From positions 62,001 to 126,000 of the forward strand of contig JAATGP010000013.1 in the NCBI GenBank assembly GCA_015654635.1: 64,000 nucleotides of DNA. Direction: 5' to 3'. This document shows, one piece after another, positions 44,953-46,102 of this stretch; positions within the stretch are counted from its first letter, which is position 1, and the number at the start of each line of letters is the position of its first letter. Made by a program: the position numbers and the translations under genes. The notes beneath the pieces were generated by a model. The model saw nothing but the letters and a program-made list of their open reading frames with translations. It was not told the DNA's origin and made no database searches. The DNA is from Alphaproteobacteria bacterium. Lineage in GTDB: Bacteria > Pseudomonadota > Alphaproteobacteria > Micropepsales > Micropepsaceae.

Positions 44953-45244
44953 TGGTGCGGGCGGTCGGACTTGAACCGACACAGGCCTCGCGGCCCAACG
45001 GATTTTCGTACCGCTTCGGCTTTCGCCGCCGCCCATAACGGGCGTTCGTGGTCTGGACTATCCCTTCACCATGGCGTCGCCGCGTTAGGTGCTGCCCGTC
45101 TAGTCTCTACACCTTCCCGTCTCCGGGCTTGGCTCGGGATTGCCAGTTAAGGGTTCCCCGAATTTGGGCAGTTCTACTCCGGCGATTTCCCGCCGGGCAC
45201 TCAATCGCTTAAGTCCGGTGCGTCTACCATTCCGCCACGCCCGC
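44953..45244 (-). tRNA. tRNA-Leu(UAA) split by a group I intron
   Basis: Exon 1 is 45244-45211 (34 bases, GCGGGCGTGGCGG... to CGGACTT) and exon 2 is 45006-44953 (54 bases, AAAATCCGTTGG... to CCGCACCA). Joined, they give an 88-base class II tRNA with acceptor GCGGGCG/CGCCCGC, a long variable arm (GGCC-GCGA-GGCC), T-arm GTCGGTTCAAGTCCGAC and encoded CCA. The intron interrupts the anticodon after U34, the same site as in cyanobacterial tRNA-Leu(UAA). The anticodon stem carries a C27-U43 mismatch in the mature form. It is transcribed away from rpsD. Confidence 0.93.
45007..45210 (-). ncRNA. Group I self-splicing intron, compact IC3-like, 204 nt
   Basis: On the minus strand the core pairings are all visible. 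P1 pairs exon ACTT with intron GAGT, placing a U-G wobble at the splice site. P2 is CCGGCGG-GAAA-TCGCCGG. P3 is CTGCCC (45171-45166) with GGGCAG (45097-45092). P4 is TCGGG (45161-45157) with CCCGA (45138-45134). P7 is GACTA (45105-45101) with TAGTC (45060-45056). P9 is CGCCC/GGGCG, followed by a CGGC-GAAA-GCCG hairpin. The intron ends with the terminal G at 45007. There is no open reading frame inside. Its length almost equals that of the well-studied Azoarcus tRNA-Ile intron (about 205 nt). Confidence 0.93.
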
Positions 45245-45277
45245 GCACCCCGGAGCTATACACGAAGGCAACCGTAC

Positions 45278-45316
45278 TTTTAAGTCCGTTGCGTCTACCA
45301 TTTCGCCGCCGCCCGC
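45278..45316 (-). pseudogene. tRNA-Leu(UAA) 5'-half remnant
   Basis: Just upstream of the intact gene on the same strand, 39 bases repeat a tRNA-Leu 5' half: GCGGGCG, AATGGTAGACGCA, then ACGGACTTAAAA. It continues through the uninterrupted anticodon loop CTTAAAA, with no intron, and then diverges. The following bases cannot complete an anticodon stem, variable arm or T-arm. It differs from exon 1 at only a few positions and has A27 where the intact gene has C27. It is taken as a broken duplicate. Confidence 0.82.
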
Positions 45317-45432
45317 GAAGCGCGTCCTCTCGTATAGCGCCGGCCGGAATCCTCCGCTACGGGGCAAAATATGTGCAACTTGTAGTATAGTCTCCTGCAA
45401 AACCATGTGTATTGCCAATGGGTTATCATGTA

Positions 45433-45487: not shown

Positions 45488-46102
45488 ATGACCAAGCGCA
45501 GCCCTTCCAAGTACAAAATTGACCGCCGTATGGGCGAGAGCATTTGGGGCCGCCCCAAGAGCCCGGTGAACAAGCGCTCCTATGGTCCCGGCCAGCACGG
45601 TCAGCGCCGCGCCAAGAAGCTGTCGGATTATGGCACCCAGCTGCAGGCCAAGCAGAAGCTCAAGGGTTATTACGGCAACATCACCGAGCGTCAGTTCCGC
45701 CGCTATTATCAGGAAGCCGTGCGCCGTCCGGGCGACACCGGCGAAAACATGATCGGCCTTTTGGAGCATCGCCTCGATGCGCTGGTCTATCGCGCCAAAT
45801 TCGTGCCGACGCCGTTTGCGGCCCGCCAGCTCGTCAGCCATGGCCATGTGAAGGTCAACGGCCGCCGCCTCAACATCGCCTCTTATCAGGTGCGTGAAGG
45901 TGATGTGGTCGAGCTTTCGGCCAAGGCCCGCGACATGGCCCTCGTCATCGATGCCGTCAACAGCCCCGAGCGCGACATCCCCGATTATCTCGATGTCGAT
46001 CCCGGCAAGAGCGCGAAGTTCTTGCGCACGCCGAAGCTGGCCGACGTTCCTTATGCCGCGCAGATGCAGCCGCATCTGATCGTCGAATTCTATTCGCGCT
46101 AA
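45488..46102 (+). CDS. rpsD: 30S ribosomal protein S4
   Basis: A 204-residue protein of the usual length. The N-terminal segment has [19 protein letters not shown], and an S4 RNA-binding domain spans about residues 95-155 ([34 protein letters not shown]). It lacks the zinc cysteines of the C+ form. It is a primary binder of 16S rRNA in small-subunit assembly. It is monocistronic, as usual in alphaproteobacteria, with its own near-consensus promoter and a strong terminator. Identification is certain. Confidence 0.98.

Follow-up and report, generated by a model that had tools for sequence, protein, structure and literature searches.

The described system closest to this locus is the tRNA-dependent lysogeny of actinobacteriophages (Guerrero-Bustamante and Hatfull 2024, PMC10865867). 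In the sections of that paper available to us, a tyrosine integrase recombines at a short core inside a host tRNA gene, the tRNA is not rebuilt, and the incoming phage brings a tRNA of the same isotype. The Gordonia phage Daredevil is described there as integrating at tRNA-Lys-TTT without rebuilding it, as encoding no tRNA and as forming clear plaques; a figure legend instead names tRNA-Ile2-CAT as the tRNA that is lacking. In the same available text, the word "intron" occurs once, in a reference title. On the side of group I introns, the accessible part of a 2014 review (PMC3984707) states that introns protect their own homing sites by disrupting them and that the phage introns known at that time all lay in protein genes. 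Split tRNA genes have also been regarded as a bar to integration in archaea, an idea of Randau and Soell that is relayed in the accessible part of PMC4033280.

Here, we analyzed a locus in the window (the whole stretch of 64,000 nucleotides under study, from a Micropepsaceae genome). We consider it probable that its intron-bearing gene is a replacement tRNA-Leu(UAA), left behind by an integrative element that split the native gene, with an intron that may act as a shield. The coordinates of all features are collected in Table 1.

Table 1. Features of the tRNA-Leu(UAA) locus in the window
Feature	Position	Strand	Remark
Replacement tRNA-Leu(UAA), 5' exon (putative replacement)	45211..45244	-	Ends GGACTT (U34)
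Group I intron, 204 nt, final base G	45007..45210	-	RF00028, covariation, boundaries
Replacement tRNA-Leu(UAA), 3' exon with encoded CCA (putative replacement)	44953..45006	-	Starts AAAATCC
33-bp gap between split half and replacement gene	45245..45277	-	Position of the integrase in relatives
Relic 5' half of native tRNA-Leu(UAA), attL-like scar	45278..45316	-	Stops at shared core ACTTAAAA
Native tRNA promoter (putative), TATAC -10-like site	45331..45336	-	By eye; similar in G064
rpsD (ribosomal protein S4), presumed	45488..46102	+	ORF; neighbor marking the native tRNA-Leu(UAA) site

The minus strand of the window from 45244 to 44953 holds a gene for tRNA-Leu(UAA) in which a 204-nt group I intron cuts the anticodon loop after U34. 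Most of this had been read from the letters alone in the original prediction: the two exons (45244-45211 and 45006-44953), once joined, are called by ARAGORN as a normal tRNA-Leu(TAA) with a normal anticodon loop, and the intron boundaries agree with the insertion after U34 and the terminal G that it gave. The covariance search it had suggested came out in part as expected: Rfam RF00028 matched 45033-45220 (minus strand) over the full length of the model with an E-value of 5.8e-9 and a score of 41.1 bits, which falls below the Rfam gathering score of 50. It had also foreseen failure of gene finders; without intron search, ARAGORN reported no tRNA at 45244-44953, and with intron search it recovered the gene and labeled it tRNA-Ser.

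The proposed fold (P1 with its U-G pair, P2, P3, P4, P7, and P9 had been claimed) was borne out by covariation in 29 homologous precursors from Micropepsaceae, the class sample, and two plasmids. Across P1-P9, including the P7 pseudoknot, 98.3% of the 1361 cells in 47 named pairs are standard pairs, and 14 of the 47 pairs are altered on both sides. None of 500 shuffles reached either the share of paired cells or the count of both-side changes, one of 500 reached the number of pair types, and sliding the fold by 1-3 columns left only 25-45% of cells paired; these controls are lenient, as the precursors are related and the fold was drawn from the window sequence and is thereby favored over its slid versions. 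In P3, P4, P5, P6, P7, and P8, every cell is paired in the 29 sequences, with both-side-changed pairs present in each of P3, P5, P6, P7, and P8, and P1 with the U-G pair at the splice site is invariant (29 of 29). In 32 Leu precursors, the intron is preceded by GACTT and has a final G, motifs that themselves served to locate its ends. Sequence comparison therefore supports a tRNA-Leu(UAA) gene with a compact group I intron behind U34, one expected to be self-splicing. Its subgroup is probably IC3. The group I intron of Agrobacterium sits in tRNA-Arg.

Directly upstream of the intron gene lies the 5' half of another tRNA-Leu, also on the minus strand, which breaks off after GGACTTAAAA. Here the original prediction was incomplete, since it overlooked this split second copy, recognized neither the connection with an integrase nor the gene's part as a replacement, and left the minus strand unstated. 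The half lies 172 bp from the start of an ORF that, from its sequence, is presumably rpsD. Among 30 family loci read (each showing either a split half or the uninterrupted pattern), nine have an intact tRNA-Leu(UAA) with rpsD nearby, and contigs L058 and L059 also carry an intact tRNA-Leu(UAA) beside rpsD. Since the relic half adjoins rpsD as intact genes do in relatives, it marks the native tRNA-Leu(UAA) site. A TATAGC -10-like site, taken by eye for a promoter, is present at 45260-45255 within the 33-bp gap.

Comparison with the locus most like the window, G064 (rpsD 94.6%), yielded two blocks of homology: one of 878 nt at 89.1%, which stops exactly at 45278, at ACTTAAAA, and one of 297 nt at 88.9% over the intron gene. 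Between them, G064 has 1.49 kb with an integrase and the window 29 unaligned bases. With the G064 integrase filling the interval between the two blocks, and the first of these ending at the core, we regard the case of the window as settled. The intronless loci L174, L170, L176, and L178 align with the window as far as ACTTAAAA and again from the 3' exon onward. The integrase gene that stands beside the replacement tRNA in relatives is absent from the window copy, and a pattern search of the own genome found no split-off 3' half of the native gene. Judged by its sequence, the window holds the relic of an element and not a working one. A decayed fragment of a related integrase was observed elsewhere in the own genome (G000:C33:165413-165690).

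The tRNA set of the own genome was also surveyed. It comprises 39 RF00005 matches, of which ARAGORN names 38 and leaves one, of 32 bits, without a name; the named tRNA-Leu genes are CAA, GAG, CAG, and UAG, with no UAA. Three patterns for an uninterrupted tRNA-Leu(UAA) anticodon region found none in the assembly (92.9% complete), where no tRNA-Leu(UAA) other than the intron-bearing gene was seen. As far as the assembly reaches, RF00005, ARAGORN, and anticodon patterns thus lead us to reject another intact copy.

The question of how often such introns occur in alphaproteobacteria, left open at the outset, now has a partial answer: among 96 family genomes, 13 have an RF00028 match (with tRNA-Leu(UAA) at 14 of the 16 matches), as do 31 of 385 sampled class genomes. 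Widening the search to the order yielded these 96 genomes again. With G029 and G045, whose introns are cut, the family count rises to 15 of 96; a renewed search at E up to 1 in 18 family genomes without a match found nothing, and thus the cut introns of these two genomes escape RF00028. An uninterrupted tRNA-Leu(UAA) anticodon region was detected in 0 of these 15 genomes vs 71 of the 81 others (Fisher p 2.5e-11), a count based on two patterns and on the reading of 30 match loci plus G071, with G054 and G008 scored as uninterrupted though the gene is cut by a contig end or odd. G071 was rejected as a split half, its gene being intact, and L166 turned out to be a CAA gene. This mutual exclusion fits a carried tRNA that the cell would need for survival. 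A split half or an integrase piece is kept at the site in 11 of the 15 genomes; given these scars and the patchy occurrence of the intron, we rejected simple vertical inheritance within the family. Among 28 class loci further read, 14 are tRNA-Leu(UAA) by their exons, and an integrase of this type lies within 1.5 kb at four of the 14 (four of 16 genomes by another count); four class-sample RF00028 matches were given no locus and stand outside these counts. In G349, the first intron bases recreate ACTTAAAA, with no such integrase within 1.5 kb. Two other group I matches were noted in the family (L046 in G050:C19 and L045 in G061:C16), one in what we take to be a 23S-rRNA-like context followed by a presumably LAGLIDADG-like frame, the other apparently in a different tRNA.

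Intact arrangements were found in relatives. In G034 (same sequence as L063), rpsD is followed by the native 5' half, a 418-aa tyrosine integrase, the intron-bearing tRNA-Leu(UAA), and a TrlF-family ATPase. The order of 5' half, integrase, and intron tRNA is shared by G034, G065, G023, and G064 in the family and by G475 and G194 in the class sample. It is also seen in G045 and G417 (the latter from the class sample), whose introns are cut off by the end of the contig, in G029 with truncation of the intron gene, and in G103 (class sample), whose upstream half is odd; G018, like the window, has the half and the intron gene without the integrase. The replacement tRNA stands about 60-90 nt behind the integrase gene. 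A pattern for the 3' half matched 11 of 20 genomes searched, and reading of the loci in context left a true split 3' half in nine (G018, G023, G025, G029, G034, G064, G065, G103, and G194); the matches in G417 (L277), G049 (L284), and G064:C245 (L288) were discarded, as they proved to be something other than 3' halves. Both halves lie on one contig in seven of the nine, which delimits seven elements of about 14.5 kb (G029), 15.2 kb (G018), 20 kb (G194), 24.6 kb (G025), 26.1 kb (G034), 27 kb (G103), and 27.7 kb (G065). The stretch common to both junctions, read by eye in nine genomes, measures 9-24 bp and always includes ACTTAAAA, which corresponds to tRNA positions 31-38. By eye, the acceptor strands of the separated halves pair together and differ from those of the replacement in G018, G025, G029, G034, G103, and G194; in G034, for example, the distant halves read GGCCCCG/CGGGGCC vs GCGGGCG/CGCCCGC in the replacement.

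These junctions bear on the explanation that the intron entered the native gene by homing or inheritance and that the upstream 5' half is an unrelated local duplication. Four of the 15 family intron genomes (G050, G061, G085, and G092) have no split half or integrase nearby and would suit it. It is refuted for the seven genomes with split 3' halves some 15-28 kb away, and both the acceptor stems of six genomes and the placement of the G064 integrase, exactly where homology breaks, speak against it, so that we regard it as extremely improbable.

In the cargo sampled, G034 has TrlF, TraG/TrwB-type, and Fic proteins, and G018 has a halogenase and TonB receptors. The gene immediately behind the intron tRNA encodes a TrlF-family ATPase (NCBIfam NF045780) both in G034 (L063:108-3092) and in the Bradyrhizobium plasmid pUSDA76 (L140:3348-6200), and a TrlF-like start was seen by eye in G029 (L303); the C-terminal part of this ATPase resembles the anti-phage protein Ppl. 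In G029 (L216/L303), the replacement is without its 5' exon and half of the intron, and the integrase frame runs into the gene. No other tRNA-Leu(UAA) was found in G029, for which either an assembly fault or an unseen copy would account.

The reading we prefer, that of a replacement gene shielded by its intron, would work as follows. The tyrosine integrase of the element would recombine at ACTTAAAA in the anticodon loop of the host tRNA-Leu(UAA) beside rpsD and split this native gene without rebuilding it, and the complete tRNA-Leu(UAA) carried by the element would allow the cell to go on reading UUA codons. In the replacement, the intron would part ACTT from AAAA (ACTT^AAAA), interrupting the shared core and setting the two anticodon-stem arms, the likely binding sites of the integrase, more than 200 bp apart. 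With its core interrupted and its arms parted, the replacement would therefore no longer be a target of the integrase, while splicing would restore the tRNA. In the window, the integrase and cargo would have been lost, and the 5' half and the replacement gene, now essential, would remain. That the intron shields the replacement from the integrase of its own element is, in our view, somewhat favored.

Integrases about 34-59% identical to that of G034 precede other complete and intronless leucine tRNAs (five of them tRNA-Leu(CAA), two tRNA-Leu(UAG)), and those of the CAA type also stand behind a split tRNA-Leu(CAA) half. An intron is present in nine of nine replacements of the UAA type vs none of seven of the CAA/UAG type (p 8.7e-5, a descriptive value, as the integrases are related and are not nine independent events). 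The nine include one truncated intron gene and two cut by contig ends, and the two UAG cases were counted from the order of integrase and tRNA-Leu(UAG), with a putative split half. Outside this count stand G043 (contig end), G103 (odd upstream half), and G460 (upstream half unrecognized as tRNA-Leu, intron gene about 2 kb off). In the integrase tree, the UAA type requires two changes, forming a clade of seven with two further members of unresolved position plus G103, whose integrase falls outside the main UAA clade and inside that of tRNA-Met/tRNA-Arg integrases, yet precedes an intron gene. Beside tRNA-Met, 11 integrases leave that tRNA gene intact. Split CAA halves resemble earlier replacement genes in two of six cases (L196 and L215), perhaps three (L194), compared with none of ten UAA halves recognized as such (Fisher p 0.036 with three CAA cases, not significant with two); the resemblance is suggestive of elements stacking in the same gene. 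A search of phages with the L063 integrase at E 1e-15 found nothing, and a search of viral contigs matched one contig.

Introns at the same site were also found in phages. Of 13 viral contigs holding the intron core pattern, ARAGORN reported an intron-bearing tRNA-Leu(UAA) in seven (L304, L305, L307, L311, L312, L314, and L315; 12-328 kb), four of which have at least six tRNAs in the stretch; in L306 and L308, it is a CAU tRNA that such an intron interrupts. A 735-kb phage genome (L141) carries an intron-bearing tRNA-Leu(UAA) that is not listed by Rfam. Neither this phage nor the viral contigs have an integrase of this type in the stretches examined. In Daredevil (NC_048021.1; L142:1880-2191), we detected an unannotated tRNA-Lys(TTT) with a 238-nt group I-like insert after U34; the integrase gene is about 0.6 kb away. 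The core of the insert and the window intron share 75% identity over 148 nt; Rfam did not report the insert at E 0.01, and a search of 351 bases gave 15.4 bits (E 0.13). The clear plaques of this phage argue against a working intron tRNA in the tested host, or else another function required for lysogeny is missing.

The introns in viral contigs, in the 735-kb phage, and at most class loci, all without this integrase nearby, together with the CAA and UAG replacements that do without an intron, count against shielding as the only reason for such introns. They would agree with the intron being a passenger, the element having captured its tRNA-Leu(UAA) from an intron-bearing lineage, so that the replacement is real and nothing is shielded. 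A useless intron should sometimes vanish, and no intronless UAA replacement was found among the integrase loci read; the nine introns in nine replacements come from four families, the tenth case (G103) has an integrase of another clade, and the pattern recurs with tRNA-Lys in a phage whose host belongs to a different phylum. A mere passenger thus seems rather unlikely to us. Shielding is not the only context of such introns, and it may perhaps be why the elements use them.

A third explanation, that the intron guards the tRNA from defenses such as anticodon nucleases and not from the integrase, draws on the proposal, in the accessible parts of PMC10865867 and PMC11476347, that phage tRNAs counter anticodon nucleases. 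Intron tRNAs do occur in viral contigs, and TrlF-family ATPases, which are similar to defense ATPases, follow the intron gene in the two loci tested. Nevertheless, the anticodon loop of the spliced tRNA is normal, and a nuclease should therefore find the mature tRNA just as good a substrate; we consider this explanation quite unlikely.

Such genes were also observed on plasmids. Two enterobacterial plasmids (L138:4497-4793 and L137:6001-6298) carry a complete intron tRNA-Leu(UAA) near predicted AAC(3)-II genes, and 1264 of the 1275 plasmid records matched by the window gene are matched over at least 80% of its length. The intron genes of pKlebA1 and of the alphaproteobacterium G160 share 86% identity over 301 nt, a hint at where that plasmid segment may have originated.

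The proposal of shielding joins two questions, namely why group I introns that lack homing endonucleases persist in the tRNA genes of bacteria and how an element that destroys an essential tRNA gene protects its replacement. It makes a clear prediction for integrase action and bears on the published reading of Daredevil. More generally, and tentatively, group I introns in anticodon loops may be kept because they render the gene invisible to tRNA-targeting integrases, a form of self-immunity by RNA splicing. If true, this would explain the bacterial tRNA introns that lack homing endonucleases, be they in elements, phage tRNA arrays, or chromosomes, and the strategy would be common to alphaproteobacterial elements (tRNA-Leu) and an actinophage (tRNA-Lys). 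In practice, replacement tRNAs can be overlooked when a tRNA finder is used with its intron search switched off.

Compared with the known systems, the elements described here share with tRNA-dependent lysogeny, as presented in the available sections of PMC10865867, the splitting of a host tRNA at a short core without rebuilding (found in the seven delimited elements of relatives, the window keeping the 5' half only) and the carriage of a complete tRNA of the same isotype. They differ from the actinophages in that a group I intron interrupts the core of the replacement, tRNA-Leu(UAA) serves as target, and the carriers are alphaproteobacterial elements, one of which has TrlF, TraG-type, and Fic proteins. 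The fold, the U-G pair at the splice site, and the terminal G are those of known bacterial tRNA group I introns, and tRNA-Leu(UAA) is the host gene in cyanobacteria as well (accessible parts of PMC3984707 and PMC4033280). In contrast to the cyanobacterial and plastid tRNA-Leu(UAA), Azoarcus tRNA-Ile, and Agrobacterium tRNA-Arg introns, as far as these sources present them, the intron here lies in a mobile replacement gene behind an integrase, not in a resident gene. As with intron-disrupted homing sites and archaeal split tRNA genes in the same sources, an interrupted target would be immune to its enzyme, and by the logic of homing-site protection the replacement should be invisible to the integrase. 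Unlike in those cases, the enzyme proposed is a tyrosine integrase, the interrupted target is carried by the element itself, and splicing would keep the gene working. In the open-licence literature searched, no work was found that connects tRNA-dependent integration to group I introns. The intron, the replacement strategy, and the disruption of a target are each known, and it is their combination that appears to be new.
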